This document shows positions 25,167 to 59,887 of a stretch of 64,000 bases of DNA, one piece after another. The stretch's first letter is position 1; each line of letters starts with the position of its first letter. This DNA is from Phallus indusiatus. Its lineage: Eukaryota; Basidiomycota; Agaricomycetes; Phallales; Phallaceae. The translations under genes were made by a program, and so were the position numbers. The notes beneath the pieces were generated by a model. It had not been told where the DNA came from and did not search any database. It worked only from the letters and a program-made list of their open reading frames with translations. The stretch is taken from positions 1,240,001 to 1,304,000 of the forward strand of contig JAQFWX010000008.1 in the NCBI GenBank assembly GCA_027605045.1, in the 5' to 3' direction.

Positions 25167-25179
25167 GGGTTATGGGCCC
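25167..25179 (+). promoter_or_regulatory. Primer-binding site complementary to the initiator-Met tRNA anticodon arm
   Basis: GGGTTATGGGCCC directly abuts the 5' LTR. It is the complement of GGGCCCAUAACCC, the anticodon stem-loop of initiator methionine tRNA (CAU anticodon). Priming by a half tRNA cut in the anticodon region is known for Drosophila copia and yeast Ty5. The match is seen; the priming mechanism is inferred from those families. Confidence 0.75.
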
Positions 25180-25231
25180 CGCGTTAAGTTTAGGGTTCCA
25201 AGTCTAAGTTTAGGGTTCGCTTATCTACACA

Positions 25232-36450: not shown

Positions 36451-38035
36451 GCCTTTCACACCCCTTAACATTCAGAAACACCAGATAGTCTTATACGAGT
36501 AACAATAAGTAATGGCAATGGCAAGGTCAGTGGGAGCCAACTGTTCCATTATGTGGAAGAGATAAGCAAACATTGCGCAAGGTAACAAGACCGCTCAACT
36601 ATTCCAAATAAGGTAGTTTGGCCGTTCCCTACTAGGTTGCTTGCATCCCGCCTTTGTGTTCAAGCTTCTGCTAGCAGCCGCACTTCCACCTCTCGTACGA
36701 CACATACCATGAGAAATCGATCTAGTCCGAGGAGCATCAGGTTCTCAAACTCGTCTTGTGATATGAACATGGTCCACCAAAACGGCCAGCGACAAAACGA
36801 ACGTCCTTATCGATATCCCCAACAATATAAAGACGATGGTCACGATCAGCGCCTAACCGCATCAAGGACTGAGGCATAGCCAATGTAGTCTTGGTGCATT
36901 TCGCATCCGACAAAATGGACAAGATGGTCTTGTGTATCCGCATGGAGTAGGCTGGATAAGCCGGAGCTGAAAACGAGACTGACTGAAACACGTTGATGAA
37001 AGCGACCCTTCTCTGTACAGCGGTTCAATCGTCGGGATGGACCTATGATCATAGCATGCATTGGCTACAATTTCAATTAACGTTTCTTAGAACTTCTAAA
37101 CTATGATCAGTTCTAACTGCTCTGCTTCACTCCAAAAGGCTCGTCACATCCTCGGTCGTTCAGATCTTTCTCCCCGGAAACAGCACCCAGGACTGGATGG
37201 ACTCCATTCATCCAAATTTTCCTGCTACACTTGCAGGACCCTTCAATCACATTTTCGATAGTGACGATAACGGACAACCCGCTCTTTCGAGTGCCACGTT
37301 GAGTTGCACTTCAGGTTTAAACATCTATGTGGCAACCTCGTCTACAATTCAACGTACCACAGTTACTAACCAAATCCCAAGATTCCTTTCATTATTCATT
37401 ACACTTGAATAAGGTAGGCAAACAGAATGGACCGACAGTGCTGGCGTTTGGTGTTTGAACACATGACGGAAGGCCATAATCGAACGTTATATGTGCATAA
37501 TGCCTTCGTTAACCCTGATACTTGTAGTGCCTGTGTGAGCAAAATAACATGGGCTGTTTCAACTCGCAGGAGTCTCTTATTATGTGTTTGCACGGCTGTA
37601 AGCAATGGCTGGATATTCCAGATTCGTGAAATCAGGCGCGAGGCGAATTCGGGCATTCAGTTCGATGAGGGAGAGCATACGCATCTGCATTCGTGCAAGA
37701 ACGTGAACGGGATTTCAATTTTGTTGATCAATGCAGCGCGCATTTTGAATATCAGGTCTCGGACGATCCAAAAGGCGTTCAGGCTAGGATGGTGGCGTGG
37801 GCTGATTGGCAGACTTCTTTGTCTAAGGTTCAAGGTTCACGACGACGGTGGGACCACGGGCTATAAAATATTCCTCCTACATTGATTTAATTGACAAGAT
37901 AAAACATACATGTACTGAGACAAAATTGAAAGGGAGATTATTCCGGGTAAGAAGAAAAACCAAATTCAAACTAATTGTGAATATGACTCCAGTGATTGTA
38001 AACATCTCGTAAAATCTGATGGTAGAGGAAAAATG
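36451..38035. other. Block-4-specific insert and unrecognised conserved segment
   Basis: 36466-37130 has no counterpart in the other blocks. Its best frame is on the minus strand (CTKTTLAMPQSLMRLGADRDH, IYIVGDIDKDVRFVAGRFGG, about 36750-36910), which looks like a fragment of a real protein that I could not name. From about 37140 the sequence follows block 2 (16180 onward). A plus-strand frame at 37427-37885 (GHNRTLYVHNAFVNPD) is open but unrecognised. Confidence 0.45.
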
Positions 38036-40926
38036 TTACATAGTTTCATGAGTCTCGACTGATTTACACTCTGCTTCATCGCTCGTTCCGTCCTCTACTT
38101 CAACATCCTCCACTTCATCCTTTGTTGTATAATAAGATTCGGAGTTATCAGAACCCTTGATCAGAAACTTCGCGAAAAGTGAGAAATTAAGGCAGCAATT
38201 ATGACTCAAGTAAGCTCACTGTCAAAAACATCGTCTGATTCAGGTTGAATAGGACATATTAAAGGAAGACCTAAGATACGAGCAGCTTCATCGCTGTTTG
38301 TATCGATGCCCAACACAGCTTGAGCATGCTGGATATACTCAAAACCTCCAGTATCAATAGTGAGCACACGGAGGGTTCGACGAATTTGAACCTTGAATGA
38401 ATTTGAGTCGAAACCGAGGGTTTCCATATCAGAACAATATAGTCTCTCGGACCCCAAAGGATCAAGAGACCACCATGTATCCAGTGTTTCATCGTGTACC
38501 GCCGGTTTTGAAATAAAGAAGTATAAATCCTCATACCCAGAAGTTCCAACCGAACACCTAAGTCTGGAAGGAATTTGGATGTGCCATGAGAATCCAATAA
38601 CTAATACAATGACCGTATGTTTGAATAAAATCATCTATAATGACATGACAGTGGTGAAATTGGCGTACCAAGGCAAACCTTACGAGCGCAAACCTCACAA
38701 GACTTGTGCAATCCATCGGTTCTTGCAAGTAAGTAGCCAATTTGACTGGCATATGCACGAGTCAATCGTCCATAATCCGAAAAAAAAACATCGCATTCAA
38801 CCACCACTGTCTGGAGATTGTTGCTAGCCGAAATGCCCGTTGTATCTGCAGGAACGCGAATCCTGAAAACATTCAAGTGTGATTCAGTGCTGCTACATGA
38901 TGGGAAATGTGCTATACCTGAAATGTTCACCACAATCTTCGATACCCAATTTTGTATGCAGTATATCATCACGAATAAACCAGGCCAATGATGATGGTTC
39001 TTCCCATGGAATAAACCCTAACATAGTTGCATTCGAAGCGTCAAGCGTAGTGTTGTGTATACCGACTAATAAAATGTCACCGGTGTAGATAGAGTACGCT
39101 GGTGCAGAGACATCCCTCCATATAAGGACATCTATGGCACCATAGAAATCCCATAAGAAAGAGGGGTTCGGAGAAACATTCGACCTTGGGGACAAACGCA
39201 GTATGTCTACTCTTTTCATAATCTTGGTCGACTGCTCTCCAGACACAGCGCCAATGCGCACCCTCTGCCACTGAGTAGCAGGAACGGCTTGTATAATATT
39301 CGGCGACCATTCCTGATTTTGAAGAATGAATTCACAATAATAATTTTTCATGCATTTGAGGATGAGAAAAATGAACTAACAAATACGAGAAGCCCGCGTC
39401 CGTCTAGAACATTCACATAAAGAGAGGCATGATATCCATCCTCACGGTCTTTGAAACCGATAAAATCATGAGAGAATTGCAGATCCCACCAAGATATAAT
39501 GGCATGGTGAGATATACCCTTTGCCACGTAGTCACGGCCTTCCTGTAAGCAGAAGGCAAACGGTGAGATACAAACAATTAGCGGAATTGTGGTCGGTTCT
39601 CACACAAAAAGACGACATCTGAGATGTATTTGAGGAAGAAATTTCATCAGATATTGTGGCAGCTCACTGCATAGCGCAAATCCATGTACCGGCCTAATAC
39701 ATCGCTGAATCTTGGATTGAATTGTTCAAATGGAATACACCACGCTATATACATAAATCGTAAGTTTTGATTTTCATTTCGTAAAGTGATATAAACAAAC
39801 GGTTGTGAAAGACAAGGCCGAGGCTTTCTTTTGACTTCATTATGCCGAATAGCTGCAACACATTTCGATGTCTTGCATGAAGAATGAGCTACCGTTGATA
39901 ACCATTTCACAAGAGACGAGTGTATTACCGATATCGCGAATACCATTCCTTTTCTTTTTCAAATTTCTGTCGAAAGTATAAGAATATAGCGAAAAAATAG
40001 CTGCATTTTTGTGTGACGCACGGAAATAGCATCACGACCTTTGTAGACACGAACCATCCGTGTCTGACTCTCTTGCTTCCATCGGACTTTCCAGTGTTCG
40101 ACTTGTCCATTCGAGATATTCTTTAGCACGTTTAGATCGCCCAATCTGATTTTTTCGAACTGGCCACTTTCAGGAGACTTCACAACGCAAACGAGCAATC
40201 CGACTTACATCAGAGTCCATCTCGTCTGTGTTGCTGCCCATTTGGAGACGTATCACACCCCTGAACTTGATATGGGACCAGAATGAAACCAAGGTCTGCG
40301 TCAAAATATATTCGTGCGCACCACAAGATTATCCCGAAACTCTTCTATCTGACTTTGATATCGTGCCAATGAATTTTTTTCACGGTCAGCTGCGAAATAT
40401 CTCCGAAGGAGCTTCAATTTATATTGTTTATTGAAGGACTCAAGATCGTTTGAGATGTCTTGTAAGCATCTGTTTAAGTGGATTCAGACTGGTAAGTATC
40501 TTATATGAGCAGAACTGCACACCTTTCAAAGTCTTTACAATCTTTCTTAAAGCTGTTGAATGAATTTGACGCGGCTTCATAACCCTTTTCAGTTTCGTCA
40601 TGAAGCATTTGGAGAATAGTTGTGACTTTGATTGTCAGAGTCTTATAACCATCTTGGTTTTGTTTCATTTGCTTATTTTCTATCAGTACTCACGGGTCGA
40701 GATCTAATGACTGACTCACTTGGACAGGTTTTAGCAGAACCTTGACTAGCTCCGCTGCACCTTTTAGATATGGGAATGGTAGGACACCCCCTACCGCACT
40801 AGCTAATTCAGCAGCCCGGAATGCGTTAGATACCCAGTTGGTTTCGCTCTGCATAACAGATACTGCGGTCGAAACTGATGGCTCGTGTTCGATCTGAGGG
40901 ATAGGAGACCTCTTCTGAAAAACCAT
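38036..40926 (-). CDS. Kinase-like protein, copy 5
   Basis: Start MVFQKRSPIPQIEHE at 40926, stop at 38036 (ending HETM). The second exon is more diverged than in other copies: the matching bases around 40500-40680 show changes such as EETKKN to DETEKG-like. The kinase-like KIRLGDLNVLKN, VRVYKGRDA and NQEWSPNIIQAVPATQ (about 39310) are present, as is the YWSLDPLGSERL motif. Several substitutions and a small deletion near 38760 (DYGRLTRAYASQ) make it the most diverged complete copy. Function unknown; no catalytic HRD/DFG seen. Confidence 0.55.
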
Positions 40927-42969
40927 AGCTGGAGATGGATTGTGAGTATGGGGTGAGTCGATTCGTGTTGATTATTTATGTGTCAAACGTGCGCTTGTCC
41001 TATGTCTGTAAAGAAGCTTCATGCTTCCTGTGCTGCCTCTGGGAATCGCAGTAAATGCTGACCGAAAGTAACTGCACTGCATCAAATGCGCATGTGCCCG
41101 CGAACTGGACCGCATTTGATTTTCCAACCAAATGGTCAAAGGCTTCTTTGATACCGCATGTGTGGCTGTGAGCACCGTAAGTACAAAGGAGGGACGTGCA
41201 ACGAGAGCGGTCCAGTGACTCCAGTTGGTAGAGACATCGAGTGTCGTGTCCTTCTATAGTATATCCATCAGAAAGCTCACACTTTCAGACCGAACGTATC
41301 AGTATATTCTTCGTGTCAAGCTCGGATGAGACGCCGGAACAGCACGTCCTTTATGGGCGCCAGAATCCATTCAAGTCCTGTTCGTCATTCGTATCATTCC
41401 AGCCCTCGGCACCATAACGCTCAAGCATGACCCACCCTAAATCCGCCAGTCCTCAACCTTTTCATCATTTTAACTTCCTCACGATCAACCTGACGCATCA
41501 ACGTGTCAACTCTCGAATCGACTGTAGACACAATCGACATACCCGAGTCAAGCGGACGATTTCCTGCTGAGGCAGTGTCGATATTGCCTATGATGAAATA
41601 ACGTCACTTACGGAGGCACAGCAACAACCGCTGATCATTTCATTCCGGGCTACACCCTTGAGATATGGGAATGGCAGAAGCCCCCCGCTGCATTAGCCGA
41701 TTCAGCGAATTTGTTACTGTATAATACTGTGTTCCTGGGGTTACGAGGTCCTCTACTTGTGTGTGTGAATTGCTACAATGATTATAGAACGAATTGATCC
41801 ATTCATATCGACGTTTTGCAAGCATCAAACACGCGCTAAGCGCGCCTGTCTCGAGGAGTTTTATGCATCGTCTCTGAGAAGGTGGAACAGCAGTCGGTGC
41901 TACACTGTGCTACACAAAAGTGGCTGCATTGCCCGCTTGCGTAGTCTTCCAGCCGCTTTCCGAGTCAATGCAAGATCCTCGCATTATGCAGCTTCTTGGG
42001 TCAGAACGATATTTGGGCAATTATTCGTGAAGAGGTTCGTGACCTCATCGGCCTCATCGCTCAGATGAGATAGTTTTCAAGAAAACCCTCACGAACCCGC
42101 GCATACAATCGTTTCCAACAGTTTGATATCGTCTTCAGTATTTCGCCGTATGACAAGTTTAACAGCCCATTTACCTCATTAACCACACCGCTTTCCTTTC
42201 TTCTCGCCTGGTCTTCCTGTGCAATTCTCGTTTCATTTCGGCTGGTCTTCATTGATCACCTTTACCATTCGTCTTTTTGTCGGTTTTTATTGGTATCCGT
42301 TGGTCTTTCGTTGGCTTCTCGTGTCTCTGATCTCTGTTGGTCTTTCATTGGTCATCGTTGGTCCTCTTTCGTGTTCGTTTCATGAGCACTAGTAGCCTAT
42401 TGGCGTTTCCTGCGCCGTAACACCAACTCGCCAGATTCATTTTCATCCCCGAGCGGTTTTAATTAACTCTTTCTCGATTTCCTTGAAGAAGAGTCTTCTC
42501 TTTTATCAGTACTAATCAACAACGGAAGATCTGTTGGGTAGGGTCACTTTATTTTTCACCATTGTTCGGCATCGTTTGTGAAAGAATAGAAAATTCATCT
42601 CCAGTGCTTGAAATTCCTTAGCGGGGTTCAAGATATTACAGCGTTTACTATTACGCTTTGCGTCCCCGTCCGATTCAACTACAAGATTCGTGAAATGTTT
42701 CTAAATGTACTGGCTTTGGGACGACGTTCCCAGTTCCCCGGCACCAACCCCAAAAATGAGTCCATCCGTCTCTGCATTGTCGCCTCCGTTCCTTTAACTG
42801 ACAAAGGTCTCTTAGTCGTCCAACCCACTCGTAGAGAAAGAGGTGACGCGCGTAATAGCACGATAGAAAGTAATGTCCTTTTAACAAAGAAAAACGATAT
42901 GACCATAATCGTAATCGTAATGTTTATTGATGATACAGACTGTATTGTTGGAAAAATACAATATATAAA
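40927..42969. other. Unrecognised spacer of block 5
   Basis: Counterpart of 10544-12484 and 19918-21973, including the TTGGTCTTTC low-complexity run (about 42230-42370). ORF 42608-43132 plus is open, but its frame is not kept in the other blocks. Confidence 0.45.
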
Positions 42970-45196
42970 TTACGTATTTCTACTAGTCTTCTTCTTACTC
43001 TTCGCAATATTCTCGCTCTCACGAATCTCTAAAGATCCACCAGCCGCCTACTGCAACACCCTACTATTACTCTTTCCGTCGCCATTATCTCTAGCAGCGA
43101 CAGTAGAAATCCTTTCCTTCACATCCAAATAAATCATCACATTCCGCACCTGCTCCTCCAGGTCACCAACTCTCATCTCAGTCTTCTTCCTCTCTACCTC
43201 AGCAATCTCCGCTTTCTGCTTTACCTTCTCCAAATTCTTCCTTCAACTCCCTCTCCAATCTTCTCGCAACTTCCCCAAACTTCTCATACCGCTTCTCGAT
43301 CCTCATTTTTCTCGCGCGCATGCCATCCTACAACCTGCTCTTCCTCTTCCTTCTTCAGCCGATTGATCAACTCCTTCTCAAGTACATTAATCTGATCCCG
43401 TGCGGAACTAAGCATGTTCTCCAAACGGCTCTTTTCGCTGCTCATAATAATCCCGCTGCGAATCCAACTACGGCGTGAGCAGGTACGAGTACTAGTGCTC
43501 AATTCCAATCGCTTCCATCTTCTCCGCGTGCATCGAATCAACAGACGTGGGACCTAACCTCGATCCATCCGCATCACTCCCGATCGTGTTTGACACGGTA
43601 AAAGCAGAAAGTAACTCGACAAGTTTCCCGTCCGTCTTATTTCGAATGAACCGATGCACATACCCATCACCCGCGTAATCCCAACCTCGGCGTTCACTGT
43701 GTTTCAAGCTCGAGGGAGTACAAATGCATTGGCATCGTCAGCTCGTAGTGCACGTGTGCTTGAGCTCGATTGTGTCGTCCACAGCCCGTGTTCCCGCATA
43801 TCAGATAAATCCAGAGATTAGACGTCGAAGAACAGTCAAAGCGGACGGATAGAGAAGGTCCATTTTGCGAGTCGGTACCGGTGGTGGATGTCGGTTAGAC
43901 TGTGATGTTGTGCTGTTGTTGTGCCATGCACCGGAAGACGTGTTTGAGAATACTGGCACACTGGTCATTTGTAGGCCAATATGGAAACTTGGGTTGGCAG
44001 ATCGGGGAAGGGGTGAGATATGTGTGACCTGGTCTCTCCTCACTTGGTTAAACACATACAATGAAAAGTATGCGAACATGATAACCTTACAAGTAACGGA
44101 CGTGTCGTTCGTTCAAGACAAACTGGACAAGTGATGAGCTTCATGTAAATTGCTCTGAGCAGTGGCAAGACGGGATATAGCGAGAGATGTGGCATCGTTT
44201 GATTCGATTTCGATGGATTTCATGTATGTGACATATCTCACTGGGCTTTGAAAGCGCACATAAGTGTTTTGAACTCGTTAAACTGAATTGTTTATGTATG
44301 GACACACATACCTCTAAGATCTAAGACGTTGAATGGACGGCCCATTGTATTCTTGTGAAAAGAGCACGGCGTCGTCCCTAGATCTGAACTTTATCGACAC
44401 TATTGAGCGATTTGGCGACGAACCGCTAAAAACGGGCCAAATTGTTAGTTATAAGAAAAGGGAGTTGGATGAGTTGTGAATTCAGAATCACCGAATCATC
44501 CTCAAATGCGCCACACTTTCCGAAGCAGGTGGATCAAAAGTCATAAAATCAACAGGAGTCATATATGACGCAAAAACAGCAAGAATCGTTTCATCATTTA
44601 AATCTTCCACTTTGACGACGGCATCCAATTTCGGTGGGGTTTCGAATTCATTTGTAAGAGAAGAGTAGATATTCTTATGTTCTTCCTCCTCTCCTTCTCT
44701 TCGGTCATGATCGTTGACAAAAGTCGGAATATTTTGATTATAATTGTGAGTGTGTCGGTATGTGTTCAACGCTTTCGGACCAGGATATGCGTTCTGGAGG
44801 GTTAATGACCCGGATTTATCTGCGTTTCTTACAACAGATTTTACTCTTCTCTATAGATAATAGCTTGAGAACCTCTAAGAATAAAGAATAAAAGTTAATA
44901 TTTTAGAAGCTTACGCTGAAGCTTAGAACAGAAGCCTGAGTACTGTGTGTTCTCCTGTTCCGTTCTTAAATCAGACTCCTCGATGCTAGGCTCAGGCTCT
45001 TCCGAATCCAGCCAATCGACAACAAAACCTCCCATCGTTTGTCCTCTTTCCTTCGTTGTTGAGATTGGTATAATAATGAGTATGCGAGGATGGTTTTTCA
45101 AATAGATCTCTGGGCCAATAAGGACTCGGAGAAGTAGTATTATGTGTGGTGTACGTAGCCTTTGGTCAATCGGAATCGAAGGCTATAATTGTTCAT
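42970..45196 (-). pseudogene. BRAP2/ETP1-like protein, degenerate copy 5
   Basis: Start MNNYSLRFRLTKGYV at 45196, tail end at 42970. The N-terminal exon at 44769-44488 reads PPKLDAVVKVEDLNDETILAV and YMTPVDFM, the fold preceding FRSRD.A.LFSQEYNG (about 44390-44350). The RING start is destroyed. QVTHISPLP and FHIGLQM follow at about 44030-43970. [20 protein letters not shown] (about 43690) and the coiled coil (43541-43048) are preserved. Frameshifts and stops disrupt it. Its head-to-head neighbour is the ARP9-like copy 5. Confidence 0.65.
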
Positions 45197-46738
45197 GACA
45201 TCTTAGGACGATAATACGGATAAAAGAGAAAGTCCTGACTGTATTTGTCGTTCAAGGTCGTTTGGGTGGTGCTGGTGAACGGATCGTCCTCGATGGCGCA
45301 AAGCGGCAGGCCGAAGTCACCATTAAGTAGTGAGTAGCAGAGAAACAATCGATATAGCCAATATATGGACATGTGTGCATATGAACGCGTCTATTTGCCT
45401 TGTGGCTTTCTCCGCGTTCCACCAATCGTATCTATACCGTACTCTTTTTTTCCCTTTCCCCTGCGCTTAAGACAGAGAGATAACAAGATGTGCCAGCACG
45501 CGTTGGACTACGCAAGACACCCTTAACGTCCAAGGTGGAAAATGAAGCCGAAATAACAAAAAACAATCAACAAATGAAAAGAAGACTATGACAAATCTGA
45601 ATTAGCTGACAAATTAATTACGTAAATATTAACGTAAGCAGGGGGCGCGTGGGGGTGCGAGGCAAAGCCGAGCTGTGTCCCAATCGTGAGGTGCAGCCGA
45701 GCATCCAATCCAAGCTCTGTCAGCCAATTGCGAGGCGCAGCCGAGCCACCGGTCAGTCTGACTCTGAATCAGTCAGAAAAAGCGCCAGTTAAATGCCTCC
45801 GCAGAACTCCAGGCCTTTCCGGCCCTCCAGTAATTAGTTAGAGATAAACTGAGAGTCTGTAAGATCCACTAAGTTCACTGAATAAACCTCTGAGCCACAG
45901 GAATATATCTGAGAATAAAATAAAATTAAATTAATATGATCAACAATTCGAATTTCGAACTGATCAGAAATAGTTGTAGTCAGAAGATAGATATCTCTAA
46001 AAATTCATCATGAAGGCATAAACATCCATTTATAAGTTCGAAAAAAATGATTTTGTGAGAACTAAGAATAATTAACATGTGCTATCTTTTGACAGGAACA
46101 GAAAATTATGGGAGGCCATTGTAACTGTAAATACTGTTCAAAACAATTTCTGAAGATAATCTAAAGAGACTATCAGGAATGGTATTCTTGAATAAATCTG
46201 ATAAAAGTCTAGGATTGTATGGAAATACATTACCGGAGCATAGAAGTCCAAAGTACAGGGATAAGGAGCCTATATGCTGTCCCCACTGCTTCCCAAGGCT
46301 ACTCACTCAATCCCTCACAGTTATAAAATCATATAGAGATAGGCTGTACATTATAAAATAAAATAAACATGTCTTAATGTATAAATTTAAACCAAAATTT
46401 GCATTTAAGAGCTAAATAATCAACAGAAAGATGTCAAATTCATAATGATTCATTGTGTATTTCAACATTTGTGAGATGATAGGTAAAATGGAAAGTTAAT
46501 ATCAGATTGTTTTTCAAGTTGTCTTTCTTGATGTCAGTGAAATAAAAAGTGAAACAACTCCGGATGCATTTTATTTTCAGCACAAAACAACATTCTTTGC
46601 ACTGCTCATTTCACACCTCATCTACTACCAGTCAGACACGAATTTTAGAGGAGAATTTTTGTTAAAATAATTTATCTGATAAAATCTCCAAATAAAATGG
46701 AATATCATAAAACAATAATTCTATGCCAGACAAGCAGT

Positions 46739-46872
46739 GAGGCGCCATTCAGAGTTAAGACATTTATGTTAGAAGTGGTCAATCTGTTCATTGCCTGTTT
46801 TCTATCTATTTCAGTTTGTTGGGAGAAATGCCACTTCTAACATAATTGTCTTAAAAGTTAACTCTGCACCTC
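46739..46872. repeat. Imperfect inverted repeat inside Helitron copy 1
   Basis: Arms about 46739-46778 and 46831-46872 share CAGAGTTAAGAC..TTATGTTAGAAGTGG against its complement. It can form a hairpin with a 50-nt loop. It recurs in the inverted Helitron copy at about 50210-50345. Confidence 0.7.
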
Positions 46873-47030
46873 ATTGACCAATCATTCAAATTTCAAGGAG
46901 AATTAAATGTAATTTTTCTTTGGAACATTGATGTTTCAAAATGAGCAGAAAAATAGAGTTTTGAATGACCCAACAGTTAATTCACATAAAAAGGGAAATT
47001 AGAGAATATCATCAGTAGTAATGTTCACAA

Positions 47031-47191
47031 GTCACAAAAATCAAAAGTGGTTTACATTGATTTATAAATGAGTCAAGGGGCTAACTTCATATTTATCGGT
47101 TAATAAAGAATTGTAAACCGATAAAATGTGAAGTTAGCCCCTTGACTCATTTATGTATAAATCAATGTAAACCACTTTCGATTTTTGTGAC
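47031..47191. repeat. Long near-perfect hairpin inside Helitron copy 1
   Basis: About 70-bp arms (47031-47101 and about 47115-47191), starting GTCACAAAAATC and ending GATTTTTGTGAC, around a short AT-rich loop. Could be a MITE captured by the Helitron or its own internal palindrome. The same structure is in the other copy at about 49935-50097. Confidence 0.75.
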
Positions 47192-47457
47192 AAAATCAGA
47201 TCTTTTGACATAGAATATGACTTATTTTATTAGTTTAGCTATTGAGAAAATAGCTTATTTCTGTAAACAAGTACAACTAAGTTCAAGTTGTCACAAAACA
47301 GGAAATATATCTAAATTTTTAAAAGTACTGAGTCAAACCGGAGTTAACTCAGCTTGGTATTCTCTCAATGGCAAATTTAGAAAGATTAAATTTATATTTT
47401 ATTCATTCAAACAAATAATTCTTAAATTCACGGATTCTGATTCAGCCTGTAACACGG

Positions 47458-47473
47458 GCGCGGCTTGCCGCGC
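47458..47473 (+). terminator. Helitron 3' subterminal hairpin
   Basis: GCGCGGC-TT-GCCGCGC, a perfect 7-bp stem with 2-nt loop, 12 nt upstream of the CTAG end. In Helitrons this hairpin is thought to act as the rolling-circle transposition stop signal. Confidence 0.85.
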
Positions 47474-49041
47474 AGTCAAACCTAGTACTAATACTAATGG
47501 CGCATCACGCAAAGCGTTCAACTTTTAAAGATGATGTTGAGATGACTAATGACTATCAAGGCGAGAGACCGCCCTGTCCTCCACTTCTACGAAAACGGGT
47601 GTTCCCAGTTCCGTCAAACATATCAGCCGTCTTCGTAAATTGTTCAGTCTCGTGCCAAGTGTAGAGGTGTCTGACTATCTCGTTGGACAACAATGAGATA
47701 TATTGGCCGCTGGACAAAGATGATATCCGTTGCTGGCCTCAGGTTAAAGCACTCTGGTGGGTATTGGCTTGTAGATGCTACCCCCTGATGCTTATATTTC
47801 TTCCAGGAAATACAATTTGTTCACGTGTCTGGGTCTTCGCTGTAAACAAAACGAATCACCGGTGACATCTTGTGTTCCATGCTGCCCGCGTCCAACACAA
47901 GAATTACTAGCGCAGCTATTCTTCCAACGGTTCAAATGTGGCAGCATTTATGCTTGCAGAACGTCCCCTGGTGCAGATATATTCGACGAATGCTGTGATC
48001 GACATATTTTATTCTAGAACGAATCACCTCTGTCGTGGAGTCTCTAGTCCAGTATCACTATACAACGCGTCTCGACCTCGGTACGAAAGAATTGCGAGAT
48101 TTATTCAACCCATATTCTTCGATCGCACCATAACCTAGTAGTTGCAATTTCCGAAGGAGGGGACATACACAGAAGAACATCTGAATACCCAGCTATCAGA
48201 GCTAACTCGTCGAATCTGGTGAGACGGTCTTATCTTAAAGTTCCATCAGATGGTGAAACCGCGCAATATGAAGAAGGCATAACGGACATCGCAGATTTAT
48301 TAGCTGCCAGTAAAGAAAAAGCCGCTATCGAGGCTGGTACAAAACGCAAACTCAAGCTAAACGAGAACGGGAAAGAGAAATAGCCCAACTCAATCTTATA
48401 CAAGTCGAGTTCAAAGGAAAGACGCTCAGATTGGGACGAGAGCGTCATCGATTTTGCGAACCTTTGTTCGACCCGAGTTTGCTTGAATTCGCTGGATGCA
48501 GTTAAAAAAGATCCAATTGTGAGTTATGATTTTACAGGAAAGAGTCCACGTAATTGAAAATAGTCTTTCACACCCCTATCGCTATCCTGTTTGGAGCAGG
48601 GTGTTTGTTCAGGTGAAATTACGACGGGAGTGAAAGGTATGAAAGAACCTACTTATCTTGTTCCATATTTGTGTCTCTCACTGATCTTGCGCTTTAGGTC
48701 TCGGTCCCGCTCTTCAATCAAGACTGTTTCCCTACCTTCTATTGGAACAAAGCGGTCATCAACACATCCGGATGCTCAACGTACCTGAATATTTTGGCGA
48801 CTATCGTGGCAAAAGTGAAGATCTCGCCGTGCATTTGGGAACAAGCATTGCCGCAAAAGTATGTAATTTGAGTACCATGCTGATTGTATTCTTGATTCCT
48901 CATGTCCTTGATAAGTTATGGGTCACGTTCGATGAACCAGCTAGTAGAAACTTTCTCTTTAAAGCCGTTTATAATTTGATGGGACCTCGTGCCGTCCTTG
49001 AATTTTCTCCTGCTGTATATGAATACGATAGGAAGTATTGA

Positions 49042-49401
49042 ATGTATTTTATCAAGCGGTGTGATAGCTTATAGTAATAAATTGTATGCCGATGATACAA
49101 GCCTTGATGAACCGGTATGGGCCTATTTATATCGATGCGTCTCCTCGGATGTAGGCAAGCTTCACGCGTTTTTCCCCAGCGTATGCTTGTCAAACTTTCT
49201 TTGTATCGCCTTAAGAAGCCTGAATGCAAGTTGGAGCAACATTGCATCCAAAAAAATAAGTGCGATGCTTGCTAGTACTAGGACTCGCCAGTGGTCGCCC
49301 AAGTTCTTCAGCCCGATCTAAAGGCGTAGATCAGCGTGGTTTCTCTCTGAAGCATATGCATAAAGCACATGAATTACTCCACCAGCAAATAGTCCACAGA
49401 T
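49042..49401. other. Unrecognised stretch between ARP9-like copy 5 and the inverted-repeat element
   Basis: Matches block 1 at about 5422-5745. A plus-strand reading in block 1 (MQQASRAFPQRMLVKTLLASPEE, near 5530-5595) suggests a second small downstream gene, not recognised. Confidence 0.4.
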
Positions 49402-49462
49402 TATGGAAAGCAGGACTGGACAGCTTGTTTTCCCTGCAAATTTGTGACGCAACGGCACCGGC
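49402..49462 (+). repeat. Left 61-bp terminal inverted repeat candidate
   Basis: TATGGAAAGCAGG...CACCGGC. Its reverse complement is found without mismatch at 59827-59887. Confidence 0.85.
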
Positions 49463-49646
49463 AATCGGTTTTCACTCACCACACACCCTGAAGACACCGG
49501 GCACCTTACAGTGTAATTAATATTATTGCAGATTGAGCCGGTGTAGCTACTATCTGTGGAGGCGGCGGGTGGGGAGTGCGCTTACGTAAGCTGAAAAAAC
49601 TGACAGCATCTTTGCCTGTTCGCTCTTCGTGCAAATACATAGTCTA
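49463..49646. other. Non-coding interval before Helitron copy 2
   Basis: Subterminal region of the inverted-repeat element. No gene seen. Confidence 0.4.
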
Positions 49647-51512
49647 CTAGGTTTGACTGCGCGGCAAGCCGCGCCTGTGTTACAGGCTGAATCAGAATCC
49701 GTGAATTTAAGAATTATTTGTTTGAATGAATAAAATATGAATTTAATCTTTCTAAATTTGCCATTGAGAGAATACCAAGCTGAGTTAACTCCAGTTTGAC
49801 TCAGTACTTTTAAAAATATATTTCCTGTTTCGTGACAACTTGAACTTAGTTGTACTTGTTTACAGAAATAAGCTATTTTCTCAATAGCTAAACTAATAAA
49901 ATAAGTCATATTCTATGTCAAAAGATCTGATTTTGTCACAAAAATCGAAAGTGGTTTACATTGATTTATACATAAATGAGTCAAGGGGCTAACTTCACAT
50001 TTTATCAGTTTACAATTCTTTATTAACCGATAAATATGAAGTTAGCCCCTTGACTCATTTATAAATTAATGTAAACCACTTTTGATTTTTGTGACTTGTG
50101 AACATTACTACTGATGATATTCTCTAATTTCCCTTTTTATGTGAATTAACTGTTGGGTCATTCAAAACTCTATTTTTCTGCTCATTTTGAAACATCAATG
50201 ATTGGTCAATGAGGTGCAGAGTTAACTTTTAAGACAATTATGTTAGAAGTGGCATTTCTCCCAACAAACTGAAATAGATAGAAAACAGGCAATGAACAGA
50301 TTGACCACTTCTAACATAAATGTCTTAACTCTGAATGGCACCTCACTGCTTGTCTGGCATAGAATTATTGTTTTATGATATTCCATTTTATTTGAAGATT
50401 TTATCAGATAAATTATTTTAACAAAAATTCTCCTCTAAAATTCGTGTCTGACTGGTAGTAGATGAGGTGTGAAATGAGCAGTGCAAAGAATGTTGTTTTG
50501 TGCTGAAAATAAAATGCATCCGGAGTTTCACTTTTTATTTCACTGACATCAAGAAAGACAACTTGAAAACATCTGATATTAACTTTCCATTTTACCTATC
50601 ATCTCACGAATGTTGAAATACACAATGAATCATTATGAATTTGACATCTTTCTGTTGATTATTTAGCTCTTGAATGCAAATTCGGGTTTAAATTTATACA
50701 TTAACACATGTTTATTTTATTTTATAATGTACAGCCTATCTCTATATGATTTTATAACTGTGAGGGATTGAGTGAGTAGCCTTGGGAAGCAGTGGGGACA
50801 GCATATAGGCTCCTTATCCCTGTACTTTGGACTTCTATGCTCCAGTAATGTATTTCCATACAATCCTAGACTTTATCAGATTTATTCAAGAATACCATTC
50901 CTGATAGTCTCTTTAGATTATCTTCAGAAATTGTTTTGAACAGTATTTACAATTACAATGGCCTCCCATAATTTTCTTTTCCTGTCAAAAGATAGCACAT
51001 GTTAATTATTCTTAGTTCTCACAAAATCATTTTTTTTCGAACTTATAAATGGATGTTTATGCCTTCATGATGAATTTTTAGAGATATCTATCTTCTGACT
51101 ACAATTATTTCTGATCAGTTCGAAATTCGAATTGTTGATCATATTAATTTTATTTTATTTTATTCTCAGATATATTCCTGTGGCTCAGAGGTTTATTCAG
51201 TGAACTTAATGGATCTTACAGACTCTCAGTTTTATCTCTAACTAATTACTGGAGGGCCGGAAAGGCCTGGAGTTCTGCGGAGGCATTTAACTGGCGCTTT
51301 TTCTGACTGATTCAGAGTCAGACTGACCGGTGGCTCGGCTGCGCCTCGCAATTGGCTGACAGAGCTTGGATTGGATGCTCGGCTGCGCCTCACGATTGGG
51401 ACACAGCTCGGCTTTGCCTCGCACCCCCATGCGCCCCCTGCTTATGTTAATATTTACGTAATTAATTTGTCAGCTAATTCAGATTTGTCATAGTCTTCTT
51501 TTCATTTGTTGA
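49647..51512 (-). mobile_element. Non-autonomous Helitron, copy 2 (inverted, nested)
   Basis: 1866 bp, the reverse of copy 1 with small indels and point differences. On the minus strand it starts TCAACAAATG (51512) and ends CTAG (49647), with the same hairpin at 49659-49674. Flanks are A and T on its own strand, with no target duplication. It lies inside the inverted-repeat-bracketed element, so it inserted after that element. No coding sequence of its own was recognised. Confidence 0.9.
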
Positions 51513-51773
51513 TTACATCTAAAAAAAAAGGCTTACATTATACACCGGTGTGTCATAAACCAGAACTACCACCAAATTGCTACAAAGCTGTGTGACACCG
51601 GTACATAGTGCACCTGGTAAAAACCCAGGCATGGGATGGCAGTTCCACTGCACTCCCTGTACCATTGTCTATCCTCCATAGCCAACCCAAGGCATCTATG
51701 GTTGTCAGACCTGCTGTGCAGAGTTAGGAACCAAAAGGTGCATGGGCAGGGTGGGTCTAGCTGCAGGTAGGTA
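51513..51773. other. Upstream region of the dioxygenase-like gene
   Basis: Non-coding; contains ACACCGGTGTGT, a short palindrome at 51542-51553. No clear TATA box was identified. Confidence 0.35.
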
Positions 51774-53548
51774 GTGGATGTCGACACAGGACCGGTTGCT
51801 GCCCATTACGTAATCATCCCCAGCACTGTCGCCCTCCTTAATCCGAACTTAATTAAACAGCCTACCCTATATCCTTTTACTTTAATGGCACTCAGGAATG
51901 AAAGGCAAAGTAAGTTTTTTAATATGCAGCTTGAGAGAAAGCTTGAATACCTTCTAGTGGTTGTAGAGTGGGTGTCAGATACAGCTTTAATGAACGATTT
52001 ATTCCGGGGCGAGATTGTGCAAACAACAATGCAACAGCTACAGGCAATATCTTTGAAATATGGATTCTCAAAGATTAAAAAAGTATGTACATAAAGCTGT
52101 CAATTTTTTTAGTTAAAATAGTTTCCAGGTAGACCAAGTAACTGCAGTTATAGGGCGACATGCATCCTATATAGAGGGTTTGGATGGTCGCTGGATGACC
52201 TATACCGGTAAACGAAAGCTAGTAAAGGACTTTAAGAACAGTGCAAAGCGACATACAGTATGTATTTTATTTTATATTATTATACACGATCCTATGACAG
52301 CTGTAGGTCAAAGCTTTGGGCCTTAATTCGCTACCTGGTTCTGTCAAAGTACCTGGTAACAGTTATATTCGTACCAAAGATGATGGATTTCATGTAAAAC
52401 GCTGGACTCATTTGGTTGATAAAGGAAATGAAGACCTCTTTTGTGGTGATAAAAGCAACTGCTATGTTGTTGGCGAGAAGCAGGGTTGGCTGCATATTGC
52501 TGCAACAGAAAGTGCCTATATTTACGATTCAGAAGGTGAGTTTCAATGTATGGATATAAGTAAAGCTTTATTCATCATTAAAAAGGAAACCTACAAATGT
52601 TCATACTATGAAATGTGTCTGAAGATACCGATATTCTTAATGCCATCAATAAGGTTATGAATGAGGCCATTAGTGATAGGCGAGGAGTTCGGGTGAGTCA
52701 TTTTTTCTAGTTAATCTATTTGTAATACTGATATCAAGTAAATAGCCTACCGATCCTGGGAAGCAAGTTCAGTTTGGATACAATGCAGGCCCACGACACT
52801 TACGAGTTTTTGGATTCGTTCGTAATATCGTTAGTAAGAAATGGTCTACCGATATGAAATCACAAAAAGATCGGAAAATCCTTGGTATTATGTCATTGTT
52901 TTGGAATGTGGTTTTATCAAAAGCTCCAGAAGAAGCAGTCCAGCCTGTGGTCCAAGAACTTGAGGCTTCTCAATTACCATGTATGGCTAGTGAAAATGAT
53001 CAAGGTATGTACAGTCAGTGTTTCTAATTAGTATATACTTATATATAAGACTTACTAGCGAAACAGGGCTATAGCCTTGAACTGACGAATGGTATTGAAA
53101 TAACCTTCAATACTGCTATCCGGGCACCACCGGAGGGATATATTGCAATGAACTACTCATCGTAAGTTATTTTACTATATTGACTAATACTCATTATATC
53201 TTTATTCTTAGTCGAGCACATACTGATCGTACATTCGCACCTTTCGCCTTCAGCTGGCAAACATACTACAATACCGACAATCTTCCTACACTTTCTCGGA
53301 GACAAGTACCAGGGGGTAACTTTACTAATCTTACTCTAGGTGTTACTGTTGAGTCATCTGCTAATTCAATAATGGGTTTTCAACCGAAGCATTTACATGG
53401 AACAACACTTGCTCGCGAAGGATTGTATAGGGGAGGTTTACTTATAACCTGTTCATCGCATATTAAAAAAGCCTTTGATGAGGCAAATGAAATGGCAGTA
53501 CTAAATAAATCGGTAGATATTTCATTGATAGATGAAGAACAGGTATGA
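51774..53548 (+). CDS. 2-oxoglutarate/Fe(II) dioxygenase-like protein of the element
   Basis: Multi-exon gene from ATG 51774, split by short introns (for example GTGAGT at about 52693 to TAG at 52744, and GTAAGTTATT at 53162 to TTAG at 53212). Exon 1 has the helical VVVEWVSDTALMNDLF; a middle exon reads SYIRTKDDGFHVKRWTHLV and GEKQGWLHIAATES. Later exons read QFGYNAGPRHLRVFGFVRN, then NYSSRAHTDRTFAPFAFSW with an HxD, GGNFTNLTLGVTVE, and FQPKHLHGTT about 60 residues on. HxD, a downstream GG.F and an HG-type distal histidine match the double-stranded beta-helix oxygenases, including TET/JBP-like proteins carried by fungal transposons. The assignment is by pattern only. Stop at 53548. Confidence 0.45.
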
Positions 53549-53601
53549 ATCGTACATACATGTGTAATCTTTTTCTATAAAACACTTTGTCTACCTATGT
53601 A

Positions 53602-55455
53602 TTATTCTTCATCTGTGAAATCATTGATAGGAATATTGATACTATTAGGATTGTTAATATCTGGTTCATCATCTGAGAAATCATTGATAGGAATATCGAC
53701 ACTGTTTGTATCGCTAAACCCTTGCCCCTCTTCTTCAACCTCAATCTCTACTACACCCCCCATATAGGCAACCTGATTCGGATTGACTGGGTAATTTCCA
53801 CGAAGTTCCCGTAAATTGGGTGTAAGTTCCATATAATTCTCTGTACCAGTGCCATTATTCGTACCATCCTCGATAACAATCTCCGGAATACGATAAATAA
53901 AAGCAGGATCTTGGTAGATACGATGGACTTGTGTTAGAAGATCAACGAAGATGGGCCAGATATTTTGACGAGTAATGGTAGGGGAAGCCAATTGTATATA
54001 TAGTGGGCAAATAATATTAGCAAATTCCGCTGGTACTAGTGTGAAAACATGGTCGGTTGGAGGGGCAAACATTTCTCGGACTGAGTTAATAGAATCGGTA
54101 GTGATATGAACCTGAATTATCGGTTAATGAGATATCTCCAGCCATACTTTTATTGAAAAAGTACCTTATAATCAACTGTATCATAATTCTCCGGGAATTC
54201 AAAGATTAGATCTGGTCGATCATGGGGTAAGAGCTTGTTATGATCAGCTCGTTTTGGAGTAGCATTGTGTGCAGTAATCCAGGCATTCAACTCTCCCTGT
54301 AAATATGGAATAAATAGCCATCTAAATGTTAAACTGCATATTTCGATAAGGTATAGGATGATTGATTAAATCAAAGTATTCGCTTACATATCCAAAACAT
54401 CATTCGGATCATATAGATCATTATTCAGACCGAAATCTAAAAGATCTTCAAAGCCTGGAGTAAATCGACGACAAACTTGAGACCATGTTATTTCAGGTTT
54501 GATATTACTGTGTTTTGGCATCCAGCGATGTTGGCGAGTATCAGCTAGGCTGTTATCGAACATATGGCGAAGAGCAGTATGGCCATTAGCAACACCATAA
54601 TTTTCGGTTCCTGAATCACTTTGAGTAACAAGTGGAATGGCTGGAGTTTGTTATTAGTATATCGTAAAAAGATATTAATTAGATATGATGATGTTTACCA
54701 CCAAACTGGGTTACGAATTCTAAGTAATAGCCAAGAACCAGCTTAGGATTCTTATTCGTCCACCAAACTTTGATCCATAAGATCTTTCCACTATAAGGCT
54801 CAATTCCAGTATGTAGCCACAAGTGAAATCGCTTCCATTTGTCGTGTTGGTCAATAGCCCATATATCATTAACTCCTGCTGTCCAGAATTGTTTTCGTTT
54901 GAAATTCTTGGCTTTTCTAATCTCTATTCCTTCTGGTTCATAAGTATGAAAATATTCGGTTATTACTTTTCTATTATAATAGGAATTAGTATTATTAGGT
55001 TATTAATAGCATGTATACCTACCGACTAACTCGTATACCACCCTCAGAGCGACATAGCATCATCATATCACGAATTCCAGCTTTAGGAAATCGTTCTCGT
55101 ATCGAAGCTATGACTTCTTTGCTACTTTCAATGGTATGGTCCTGTTGTCGTGTACTCTTGAGGCCCAGCTTATTTCGCATTCGTTTAAAGGATTTCAAGC
55201 TATTTTGAATTAAAATACATATTAAACAATGTATTATAACATACCTCAGGCCATATTTTGTGCCATCAATATGTTTAGTTACTATCAATTCGTGGATTTC
55301 CTTGTCGGAAAGACTCATATTATAAAAGCGACGAATATGGGGCTCCAGTTCCTCAATAGGAGCTGGTTAAATCATTAATTAAAGAGTGCAATGTCAATAT
55401 CAACAAAAAAATTAAACATACGACAAGGTTTATATTGATTAGATCGTTTACTCAT
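53602..55455 (-). CDS. DDE integrase-core transposase
   Basis: Start MSKRSNQYKPC at 55455, several 45-60-nt introns, stop at 53602. The N-terminal part (SLSDKEIHELIVTKH, KSFKRMRNKLGLKSTR, IRERFPKAGIRDM) looks like a helix-turn-helix DNA-binding region. The core reads NDIWAIDQHDKWKRF (first Asp), PLVTQSDSGTENYG (second Asp) and KHSNIKPEITWSQ (Glu), at about 54860, 54640 and 54510. The downstream GELNAWITAHNATPKRADHN matches the fungal integrase-core family known from agaricomycete genomes. An acidic C-terminus carries an imperfect repeat (NDFSDDEPDINN). It converges on the dioxygenase-like gene with a 53-bp gap. Confidence 0.8.
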
Positions 55456-55652
55456 GAGTCATAAGAGTCGTGACTGTATACGATCCTATATCATTTACTT
55501 GGGATGAGCTAAGGTTCAATCTTACTGCGAAGTCCGAGGACTTATATTATTCCCGAAACATTTTCCAACTATAACCCCTACATTCATTACATTTTTTCTC
55601 CCTTTCAATATTTAAATTACTACATTATTCTTTATATTCTATAAACCAATCA
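55456..55652. promoter_or_regulatory. Shared divergent promoter region of integrase and alpha-kinase genes
   Basis: 197 bp between the two opposite start codons, AT-rich, with no other gene. The close head-to-head arrangement suggests co-expression; this is inference. Confidence 0.45.
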
Positions 55653-58600
55653 ATGGATCAAGGTTAGGAATTTATTAAATATAGCCTATATTAGTTGACT
55701 TATTTTGATTTTAGCACCAGCCAATAGGCTAGTACGTGATGTTTTTACCGAAGAAGCTGCCATACCACAAAATTGTGAAAGAAGCTCGTGCAATAAAGTC
55801 TTACCTGCAGGAACTTCACGATACCCTGTGGAAAATAGTCGTGGTCAACAGCGATGGTATTGCCAGGACTGCTTTCTTTATTTTCAAAATAAACCGACTA
55901 CTCTTAATACCAAAAGTTTGTATAACTTTATAATTTTATTTTATATATATACTTACTCAACTATCTATAGCCTGTAGTTCAACTATATTCCGACAACCAG
56001 AAAATAATACAGTAAACTATCAAGCTATTCGTACTCAAAATAACTCAGCACAGCGACATAGTATATCTTTTTAGTTTTATTAATATTTTACACTAATAAC
56101 TATTTAGGCCCAGGGATATCTAGAGTTAAAGCTATGGGCGATTCTGTCATGATCCGATTCATGACATCACTTCCGGTAACGTTACATAAACCATATCCAA
56201 TCATTTACCGTTTATCTCCGTAATCTTATCTCGCTTACGTCACTCACGATAAGACCATCGCGTTCAGTCATCTCCATCAACCTCGCAACTCGAATAGAGA
56301 CGCACCCGTCTCTCTTAACTCCTGGAACATCCGCGGAAAGCCCTTTCTAGAATATTCCACGCACGTTCCGGTTATGAGATCATAGATGACGAACGTAGGT
56401 CCATGTATGCACAGCTCCTATCCCTGCATATCTCATGTTCATCACATGAGACATCATACCCTGCATATATTGATGTAACTTACGAATCTCACGACTTGTT
56501 TGTATTTCTCTAGTTCGGAATCTATTTCGAACTGAGCTAGAATTATTTAGCTGACGTGTATATAAACCCTAGCATACACGTAGATAGTTCTTCAGACTTA
56601 ATATCGAACGTAGTTCGATATCTCTATAACAACTCTCCTTCTCTATTCTATTCATCATTGAACGTCGAGATCGTTCCTCGAGACTTGCAGCGACGGAAGC
56701 CATCCGTCGTTGCCGAGAGTTACATCTCAAAGCTTTCTTCATTATCGTCGAGCTTGATATCATTCAATACGAGATACAGCTCGCGACTCTCGAAGCTCGG
56801 AACGCACATATCCGTAACGTCCTTGACGAACTCGACGCTCGTGACGAACGTCAGGACAAATCCTAAAGAAGACTGTCGTGGCACAACCTCTTATAGGTTG
56901 AGGCCAAGTCCTGGCTATCGTCAACCAACGGTGACAGTTATTGGTGTTATATTCAGCGACTAAAATACATTACAGTATCTATTACCGTTCCCGGATATCG
57001 GTACTTGACAGATTCGAATGGGCAATCAATACCTCCAGGCTATTTCTCTGCAAGTACTTTACCTGGTTTCATGGCTAATATGGTAGCCTCACCAAATATC
57101 GGTGTTCCTCGTGAAGGAACAATTATAAATAGTGTATCTATAAGTAAGTATGTGAATCATATCACTTAATATAGCTAATAAGACTTTGTAGATGCACATC
57201 AACAAGGTGCAGCAATATCATATCAACAACCAGGCTATACATCGGTGCATAATGACTATTATTCTCAAAAGGCAGCTCTGGCTGCAGTAGCTTATAAGAC
57301 ACCTTCTTCTCGATCATCCAAAAAAACCGATCAGGCAAAAAACTCAGCATATGTATTGGTCCATGCTGGATTATATTACGAGATCAAAGGAAAAGCAAAG
57401 ACTCAGCTGGTAAATGTAAGTTCGTATGTAATCCTATATTTGAACTGAGTTGATTTATTCGATATTAGAATGTCCACAAAGGCCTTTCTGATATACCTGC
57501 CCATATTGGAACATTGGATCTAAAGCGACATATTTATAATGCTTTGATGCCAGCATTTATTGCTGATATGGGATTCAGTATTCCAATTGATGAACTTCGC
57601 CTTGTCCGGCCCCCTGCACACGAGATTCTAGATGATAATCCTAAGTCGGAAGATGCAATCTGGCCATTCTTTCAGAACTCTAAAGCCAATAGTAACCTCA
57701 AGAAAGCTGGATTGACATTGCAACTCGTGATAGGTGCGAATAAATGGACAGAAATATGTGAGAGGATGGAAAAGGTAAGTAATATATACTGTATATTATT
57801 ATTACTAAAGTTTCAATAGTCGACTGAGTCTGACTCTGACTCTGAAACTATACCTTGGAGAGGATCGTCATCGTCTAATAAAAATCCCATATCCCAGGCC
57901 GCTAAAGTAAAAGTTCCTTAATAAAAACGACTGTAGCTAAATCTTTTTCTAGAAACTGCAGATTAAGCAGACCAACCAACAATCAGTTTCTGAGGTTCCC
58001 AAACAACAGCCAGTTCCTGAGGTTTCCAAACAACAACCAGTTCAGGTTTTCGAACAACATTCAGTTCCCGAGGTTTTCGAACAACATCCAGTTCCTGAAA
58101 CTTCCAAACAGCGACTAGTTTCTGAACAGCAAGCTATTTCAGGTGTACTTGATATGTCAAGTGAGAGTATTGGTTCCAGTCGTAAACGATCTGTATGTTA
58201 TGGTAATACTTAAAACCGAGCCTACAACTTAACATGGTTATTAGTGTACGACTACGATATTACCATCGGAGGAACCAAAAAAAAAAGTCGCAGCTACTAT
58301 GACTTGGAAATCTCCAGATCGTACTGCATTATCTAAAGCATTTGCCAGATCAGCATATACAGTTAGTTCTATTGCAGGTATGAATATCTGATACTTCTTA
58401 TGTTATTATGCTGATCCAATATAGATATTGAGATTGCCAGTTTTCCGGTCGATTTGATTCCAATACCACATGTCAACTTCGCTGATCTCCAGGACATTCG
58501 GGACGATCCTTTTTCTCTAAATAATTGTGGTCAGGGAAAGTTATTTATTCCTGAAAAAAAAGCTTTGGGATCAGGCACATTCAAAACTTGCCATATTGCC

Positions 58601-59432
58601 AATTTGATTGTTACGAAACAGCCAGAACATGGGCAGATTTCTTGGTCGGCTGTCGACACATTGGTCTCCAAACAATTTTTCAAGAAACTTGTTACTGAAG
58701 GTCCAACTACCCAGGTCACAATTTTGCGAACACCTGGCATACCCGACCTTACATTTTCACTTCGCGAAGCACTCTCGCTGTTATGGGCAGATTCATTGAT
58801 GGGGATGACTTATAGCTATATTAATTCTATAGAACATTCATTGAGCATACCCAAAGTGAGTTGTATGGCTATTCACTATTAATACTAATAACGAATTGTT
58901 AAGGTAAAATATGTCGATGCCATCATTGCTCGGACTCAGAATCCACAAACTCATTCAGTCAAAACTATGATTGTTGAACAATATATCCATCCTGAAAAGG
59001 ATGGACCATTTCGGAAATTCATTGTTAATGCTAATGCAACTCCGATTGTCCCAGAAGGACACCCTGACTATGAGCTATCGCAGTTTCTTTGTTCGGTTCA
59101 ACACATACAGTGGGATAAAACTGGAGGCCTGGCATTTGTAAGTGACTTTCAGGGTATGTCTAATGAATATTAAAGTGAAATCGTATACACTAAATGAATA
59201 TTAGGTGGAAATGAAATTTTGACAGATCCTCAGATAATGACCCATCCGTAAGCTGTAATGTTCATATTATCATCAACTGTCTAAGTTAACTCTTTTTAGA
59301 CAACTGCAGGCACAATTTGGGGAAGGGAATGTCCCTGAATGTTTCAAGCGATTCCCTGATCAGCATGTCTGCAATCATTATTGTACTGCTTTCAATCTCC
59401 CTGAACCCCAACCTTATAGCGAGAACATCTGA
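55653..59432 (+). CDS. Zinc-finger alpha-kinase
   Basis: Start MDQ at 55653, with an intron right after codon 3 (GTTAGG...TTTTAG). Exon 2 has a zinc site, NCERSSCNKVLP and YCQDCFLYFQ. The middle is low-complexity and Q/P-rich with repeats (VPKQQPVPEVSKQQPV, about 57985-58100). The alpha-kinase domain spans about 58430-59430: GSGTFKTCHIAN, TMIVEQYI with FRKFIVNAN, LAFVSDFQGGNEILTDPQ, FGEGNVPECFKRF and HVCNHYC, the C-terminal zinc site of MHCK/EF2K-type kinases. It should phosphorylate serine/threonine in helical contexts, as known for the family. A probable insertion at 56144-56955 interrupts the N-terminal half, so this copy may be inactive. Confidence 0.75.
56144..56955. mobile_element. Probable solo LTR or other insertion in the alpha-kinase gene
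   Basis: About 810 bp with base composition and content unlike its surroundings, containing a TATATAAA box (about 56559). Similar bases flank it (GCGATT at 56138-56143, GCGACT at 56956-56961), a possible diverged target duplication. The inner TGTCA (56145) and TGACA (56932-56936) could instead mark the ends. Boundaries are uncertain, and it could be an unusually long intron. Confidence 0.4.
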
Positions 59433-59826
59433 AATACAGACTGTCACAATGATTTCGGCTGCTCTGGAGTTATGTGCTCCTTTTTTTTATTGTCTGCTTC
59501 CAATTTCGTACACATTGTTAATCACTTCTCATTAAGTTTACTTTCATTAAATCTACTTTCGTTATCCATGTCTCCCTTTTTTAATGTACTAACCAATAGG
59601 TCGATACCCTTTCTTAACTATTCAAAAAATTTATTCTTTAACCAACAGGTCAATACCCATTCTTAACTAGCCGGTTTAATATATTTGCCTTTTCACATAT
59701 AATCTTGATAATTTTTTTGGGTCTGCAAATGTTATTGTAACTTGAGTGCGACAGCTTATATACTACATCATCAAAATGTCCGAAAAATCAAAGCAGTTCT
59801 TGAGGTCCTATTGATCAAAAATGATC
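59433..59826. other. 3' non-coding region of the element
   Basis: AT-rich. Contains a direct near-repeat AACCAATAGGTCGATACCC / AACCAACAGGTCAATACCC at about 59591 and 59640. No gene recognised. Confidence 0.45.
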
Positions 59827-59887
59827 GCCGGTGCCGTTGCGTCACAAATTTGCAGGGAAAACAAGCTGTCCAGTCCTGCTTTCCATA
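59827..59887 (-). repeat. Right 61-bp terminal inverted repeat candidate
   Basis: Exact reverse complement of 49402-49462. Confidence 0.85.

Follow-up and report, generated by a model that had tools for sequence, protein, structure and literature searches.

This locus raises the question of whether three intron-containing genes packed between inverted repeats form a transposon, to which kind such a transposon would belong, and what its cargo might do. The locus spans positions 49402–59887 of the window, by which we mean the whole 64,000-nucleotide stretch of Phallus indusiatus contig JAQFWX010000008.1 that was analysed; positions without a contig label refer to it. A first-pass annotation had read the locus as a candidate new transposon carrying an integrase, an alpha-kinase and a possible base-modifying oxygenase. 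We find it highly likely that the locus is a decayed cut-and-paste transposon of the IS3EU superfamily, with the alpha-kinase and a dioxygenase of the TET/JBP fold as accessory genes.

The element is bounded by terminal inverted repeats (TIRs) at 49402–49472 (+ strand, starting TATGG) and 59817–59887 (− strand, terminating in CCATA), both delimited by repeat comparison and an end search. When one is inverted the two match at 68 of 71 bases, and the outermost 61 are identical, as the annotation had described. Between them lie the dioxygenase gene (51885–53548, + strand), with seven or eight exons and an uncertain start and first intron, the transposase gene (53602–55455, − strand), with six introns by a spliced model and spliced alignment, and the alpha-kinase gene (55653–59432, + strand), which has a Cys-rich N-terminal exon and a C-terminal alpha-kinase domain. 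The spliced transposase model contains the integrase core PF24764 (E 3.5e-13). We take D151, D210 and E251 of this model to be the DDE (Asp-Asp-Glu) triad, choosing the residues by motif. No zinc-binding integrase (HHCC) domain was found in the transposase, the sole other match up to E 1 being a weak one to HTH_21 (E 0.068). The spliced kinase model matched PF02816 (E 7.7e-18; 65.7 bits, cut-off 21.3) as well as PDB entry 1ia9 (E 2.4e-6), so that the integrase and kinase proposed beforehand were both recovered.

We searched the window's own genome (67.2 Mb in 206 contigs, labelled C42, C112 and so on below) for related insertions. The left end gave 14 matches: besides the pair of the window itself there are five facing pairs and two lone right ends, so the ends do recur. 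Target-site duplications (TSDs) of 6 bp flank the pairs on C18 (CAGAAT), at C136:306588–318199 (C136a; CACCTC) and at C136:338258–344750 (C136b; GTTGAC), and the C2 pair has a 5-bp TSD (CTTTC); the flanks of the pair at C184:995964–1007110 were checked and showed none. Four of the five further pairs therefore carry a 5- or 6-bp TSD, which indicates that ends of the window type are mobile. The target duplications that the annotation had proposed to look for are present at these four pairs and absent at the window copy itself.

Two further elements carry the same cargo. The C42 element (18726–26148) and the C112 element (172267–180073) both have TATGG..CCATA ends and 6-bp TSDs (CAAGTG and AGATTG, respectively), and both hold dioxygenase, transposase and alpha-kinase in the order and orientation of the window. 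C42 and C122 are 99.86% identical across 12.25 kb, and because this identity extends into the flanks we counted them as one insertion. The trio thus occurs in identical order in three distinct, divergent elements (window, C42/C122 and C112), in all of which the dioxygenase lies tail-to-tail with the transposase, on the side away from the kinase. In spliced alignments the window transposase matches those of C42 and C112 over about 430 residues without frameshift or stop, and the C112 transposase and the C-terminal part of its kinase are likewise uninterrupted. The kinases of the window, C42 and C112 share D.QG, TDPQ and a C-terminal HxCxxxC, which we take to be alpha-kinase motifs. The Cys-rich, putative zinc-binding exon of the window gene (55715–55915) recurs in C42 and has a weak match to PF17772 (E 0.005) that is below the cut-off.

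Partial combinations also occur. In the near-identical C1 and C177 loci a dioxygenase accompanies the transposase, which in C1 contains stops, and C144 has transposase and kinase, a dioxygenase match lying some 30 kb off. An alpha-kinase profile gave 11 genomic matches, eight of them apart from transposase matches, and the two of these eight that were inspected (C137 and C129) proved to be 6.77-kb elements with 177-nt TIRs, TACGG..CCGTA ends and a diverged transposase opposite the kinase; no dioxygenase match was found in either. The C129 element has the TSD GACAGA and the C137 element has none. The kinase gene is opposite in orientation to the transposase at the window, C112, C42/C122, C144, C137 and C129. 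Over ten distinct insertions, the TSD is exactly 6 bp in six, 5 bp in one and absent in three. All this supports the annotation's central claim of a transposon that carries a transposase, an alpha-kinase and a dioxygenase of base-modifying type.

These features resemble those published for IS3EU. TA..TA termini are a constant feature of complete IS3EU families, for which a 6-bp TSD is usual (Kojima and Bao 2023, PMC10045372), and the TET-carrying IS3EU elements of Pucciniales have TAYGG..CCRTA ends, TIRs longer than 30 bp and 6-bp TSDs (Kojima 2025, PMC12730594). The ends found here, TATGG..CCATA at the window and its sisters and TACGG..CCGTA at C137 and C129, agree with this motif, and the 6-bp TSD is seen for the family, if not at the window copy. 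The 2025 paper reports TET-carrying IS3EU from Pucciniales and Tuber indicum, with the TET/JBP gene of every such family lying between oppositely oriented transposase and alpha-kinase genes. Together with the gene order of the window, these published features lead us to regard the element as an IS3EU relative whose dioxygenase sits across the transposase, and we place it in the superfamily, by its described hallmarks, with high confidence. The TET-carrying elements listed there for Agaricomycotina are Kyakuja, Zisupton, EnSpm, Plavaka and Helitron2, with no IS3EU, and we found no report of TET-carrying IS3EU from Agaricomycotina among the hits of our open-access literature searches. IS3EU sequences as such have already been counted in Phlebopus portentosus (PMC12411881) and Ganoderma leucocontextum (PMC8955403).

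The dioxygenase was characterised through its motifs and its predicted fold. The HxD and distal HG motifs that the first-pass annotation had pointed out are both present. We counted conserved residues in two family alignments, A4 (14 rows) and A5 (33 rows), and the counts are independent of the segment of the window gene that contains an in-frame stop. HxD is present in 13 of 14 A4 rows (the other is a gap) and in 29 of 33 A5 rows, and the distal His in all 14 and in 27 of 33, respectively; three of the four A5 misses for HxD and all six for the distal His are gaps. These residues make up the HxD...H triad predicted to bind the metal (Fe), and both motifs are kept across genera. This HxD-type family was found in Boletales, Mycena and the window genome and has no Pfam family above cut-off; the strongest of its weak Pfam links are two families that are both TET-like. 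The remaining Pfam matches were weak and spread over different domains (SAM_HAT_C in 3 of 33, TauD in 1 of 33 and ISN1 for C112, among others). Searching the PDB by sequence with the dioxygenase profiles returned weak matches to unrelated chains alone, with none to CcTet up to E 10, and no rust proteins were among the dioxygenase matches listed. With PF12851 the genome gave two weak matches below cut-off, on C113 and at C162:1992k, both of them away from the dioxygenase loci.

The structural comparison gave a stronger signal. In a Foldseek search of the PDB with the model of the Chiua virens homologue P0018, ranks 1–26 were all CcTet, TET2, CMD1 or NgTET1, with CcTet having the best E-value, and TET/JBP structures topped all others listed by both E-value and Z. 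In a search of BFVD, ranks 4 and 5 went to viral JBP1/TET proteins, behind three nameless entries. A first AlphaFold model, from a ten-row alignment of Suillus sequences only, had a pLDDT (predicted local distance difference test) of 39.5 and was discarded. The model predicts that the dioxygenase is almost certainly TET-like by fold, with a double-stranded beta-helix of TET/JBP type, and it is apparently a distant, undescribed TET relative.

Several observations weigh against this account of the element and its cargo. The IS3EU placement was made from described hallmarks, and an exon-by-exon genome search with PF24764 gave no matches, which is not proof of absence. No TSD was found at the window copy (flanks ACAGAT and TCCATC), which also lacks about 80 bp of target retained in three element-free paralogous loci (window ~5.77–5.85 kb, C136:373 kb and C184:1199 kb). 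This could be due to recombination between two nearby insertions or to imprecise insertion. Profile searches of the spliced proteins, which recovered the integrase core and the alpha-kinase, yielded no Pfam match for the window dioxygenase, PF12851 and PF20515 included, and the best scores in its family (17.3 of 34.9 bits for PF12851 and 19.9 of 27 for PF20515) are under the curated cut-offs. Searching the genome exon by exon with PF20515 gave no matches either, again without proving absence. The putative 2-oxoglutarate-binding Arg is present in 10 of 14 A4 rows and 18 of 33 A5 rows (7 gaps in A5). The fold was predicted for the Chiua virens protein and not for the window protein, and whole-model TM-scores (template modelling scores) are modest, at 0.28–0.41 by query length over ranks 1–26.

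The missing TSD, and the location of both flanks in a duplicated host locus, are what one would expect if the genes were an ordinary host locus and the flanking repeats came from an unrelated family of miniature inverted-repeat transposable elements (MITEs). The C42 and C112 trios have TIRs of their own and perfect TSDs, and the paralogous sites are free of the element; full elements flanked by TSDs rule this explanation out for the family, and we give it next to no chance here. The recurrence of the trio in the genome, of which we found no description for Agaricomycotina among the hits of our open-access literature searches, would fit a new transposon superfamily defined by its three genes, which is what the first-pass annotation had in mind. 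The ends (TATGG or TACGG), the TSDs of 6 bp, the rve-like transposase and the alpha-kinase that accompanies it nonetheless fit IS3EU as described in PMC12730594 and PMC10045372, and TET-carrying IS3EU with alpha-kinases have already been published (PMC12730594), so that novelty at this rank was not upheld and is very improbable.

Other alternatives concern the dioxygenase. It could be a non-functional passenger that arrived by a chance nested insertion, for example of a Helitron fragment: the same gene family occurs beside Helitron Rep-helicases with matching introns, the window copy has a stop, and aligning the C42 copy required two frameshifts. Against this, the gene has the same position and orientation in the three divergent IS3EU elements, the C112 copy is intact over the aligned region (guide residues 17–423 align without stop or frameshift), and HxD and the distal His are maintained across genera, which makes a chance passenger improbable. 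It is also conceivable that the enzyme acts on protein or RNA, so that DNA demethylation would not be its role. The first place of TET/JBP structures in the Foldseek ranking, together with TET-like weak Pfam links, argues against this, and we consider the protein or RNA alternative unlikely, though less so than a chance insertion.

We therefore return to an IS3EU transposon with two accessory genes and propose the following mechanism. The DDE transposase would, by analogy with the superfamily, recognise the TATGG..CCATA TIRs and insert the element by 6-bp staggered cuts. The dioxygenase, presumably dependent on Fe(II) and 2-oxoglutarate, would oxidise methylated bases on the element's DNA, counter methylation-based silencing and so keep the element expressed. 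The substrate is probably a DNA base, and we lean, with less assurance, towards an anti-silencing role. Such a role, close to the control of host chromatin or silencing suggested by the first-pass annotation, is consistent with a published hypothesis for TET-carrying transposons (PMC12730594). The alpha-kinase might phosphorylate the transposase or host chromatin or repair proteins and so favour transposition; this is a guess, and the kinase's role and the direction of gene transfer are to be read as conjecture.

Members of the dioxygenase family also lie beside Helitrons. The C162b copy (C162:1550 kb) is tail-to-tail with an adjoining Helitron Rep-helicase frame (PF14214, PIF1), and the C121 copy is about 2–3 kb downstream of another such frame on the same strand. 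A third, C1b (C1:2209 kb), adjoins a frame with a weak Pif1_2B match alone (E 0.025). The C195, C121 and C162b copies have seven introns at equivalent places (phases 1,0,0,1,0,1,2). The window gene clearly shares the last six of these, while its first intron is placed by a single aligned codon and may not be real; the C112 gene shows the last five, and the C42 and C1b alignments are frameshifted, with later positions unreadable. Matching intron positions and phases support movement of the gene as genomic DNA rather than via RNA. We hypothesize, with the case for and against about evenly poised, that a further, HxD-type TET/JBP dioxygenase is a shared anti-silencing gene passed on, intact and with its introns, between Agaricomycete IS3EU elements and Helitrons, and that with the alpha-kinase it makes up an accessory module, possibly with DNA-base chemistry of its own. 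At C121:663.5–673 kb, the dioxygenase is separated from an open reading frame (ORF) whose GCM match is sub-threshold by a second ORF, of 304 aa and without Pfam match. Relatives of this second ORF are again found next to the dioxygenase copies at C195, C133 and C162:608k; these loci are possibly another transposon type.

The window copy itself is probably inactive as a complete unit, because its kinase gene is interrupted and its dioxygenase has an in-frame TGA (52609–52611) when spliced at the positions of its relatives. The interruption is a solo long terminal repeat of a high-copy repeat (56145–57010, no strand given) with at least 44 other genomic matches and the 5-bp TSD GATTC (56140–56144 and 57011–57015). 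Much of the first 2 kb inward from the left end is filled by a nested dispersed repeat unrelated to the element (49645–51514, no strand given). With its inverted twin at 45565–47487 this repeat forms a large palindrome (~45565–51514), which we rejected as a component of the element because it consists of two opposite copies of a repeat that matches many other genomic places. Inside the repeat is a 160-bp near-palindrome (49935–50095 and 47031–47191), also with many genomic matches, that may be a separate foldback or MITE element.

The window contains many direct-orientation repeats over its whole length (1–64000), mostly of 80–92% identity (e.g. 16195–22368 and 37216–43368, 84%), and is therefore a tandemly duplicated host locus, of which both flanks of the element are part. 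The duplicated locus of the first-pass annotation is in this sense real for the flanks; the palindrome is accounted for by the dispersed repeat. An open frame of 1,093 aa at 26893–30174 (+ strand) reads as a Copia-type retrotransposon polyprotein, a label given by reading alone, with integrase, reverse transcriptase and RNase H motifs recognised by eye. Scanning the window for Rfam families and for tRNAs gave no hits. Elsewhere in the genome, the 11-kb intervals C136:306588–318199 and C184:995964–1007110 have window-type ends and no listed match to the trio proteins; the former holds a Helitron_like_N domain at 312314, and other elements are therefore nested within it.

These results extend the apparent range of TET-carrying IS3EU to Agaricomycotina, for which PMC12730594 lists none, and show that a single genome holds one dioxygenase family, with matching introns, next to transposons of two unrelated classes. 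They also give structural evidence for a TET-like family, unnamed in Pfam, among proteins of Suillus, Pisolithus, Scleroderma, Chiua and Mycena. Because one Helitron-adjacent copy is identical to a transcript-like spliced sequence, the protein of that copy could be used to test why TET genes are found on transposons.

Compared with the TET-carrying IS3EU of PMC12730594, the element has the same end motif and TIR length and, in its sister copies, the 6-bp TSD (features given there for the Pucciniales set), as well as opposed transposase and alpha-kinase and a dioxygenase of TET/JBP type. It differs in gene order, since their TET gene lies between the pair and the dioxygenase here lies outside it, and in the enzyme, which is of PU type in rusts and PE type in the truffle, whereas ours has HxD and gave no profile match to CcTet. 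With IS3EU/GingerRoot (PMC10045372, Repbase) it shares TA..TA termini, the usual 6-bp TSD (in sister copies) and an rve-like DDE transposase without HHCC; the available part of that description mentions neither dioxygenase nor kinase. Like the PE-type TET/JBP proteins of transposons in A. bisporus, Laccaria, Gymnopus and Pezizomycetes, the enzyme is a divergent TET fold carried on Helitron, IS3EU and other DNA transposons, but their hallmark, compared here by description, is HxE, in contrast to the HxD of the A4 rows. Finally, CcTet and the AG-type TETs of Kyakuja and Zisupton have the same fold; the structural match to CcTet is strong, and the sequence profiles gave none to it up to E 10.
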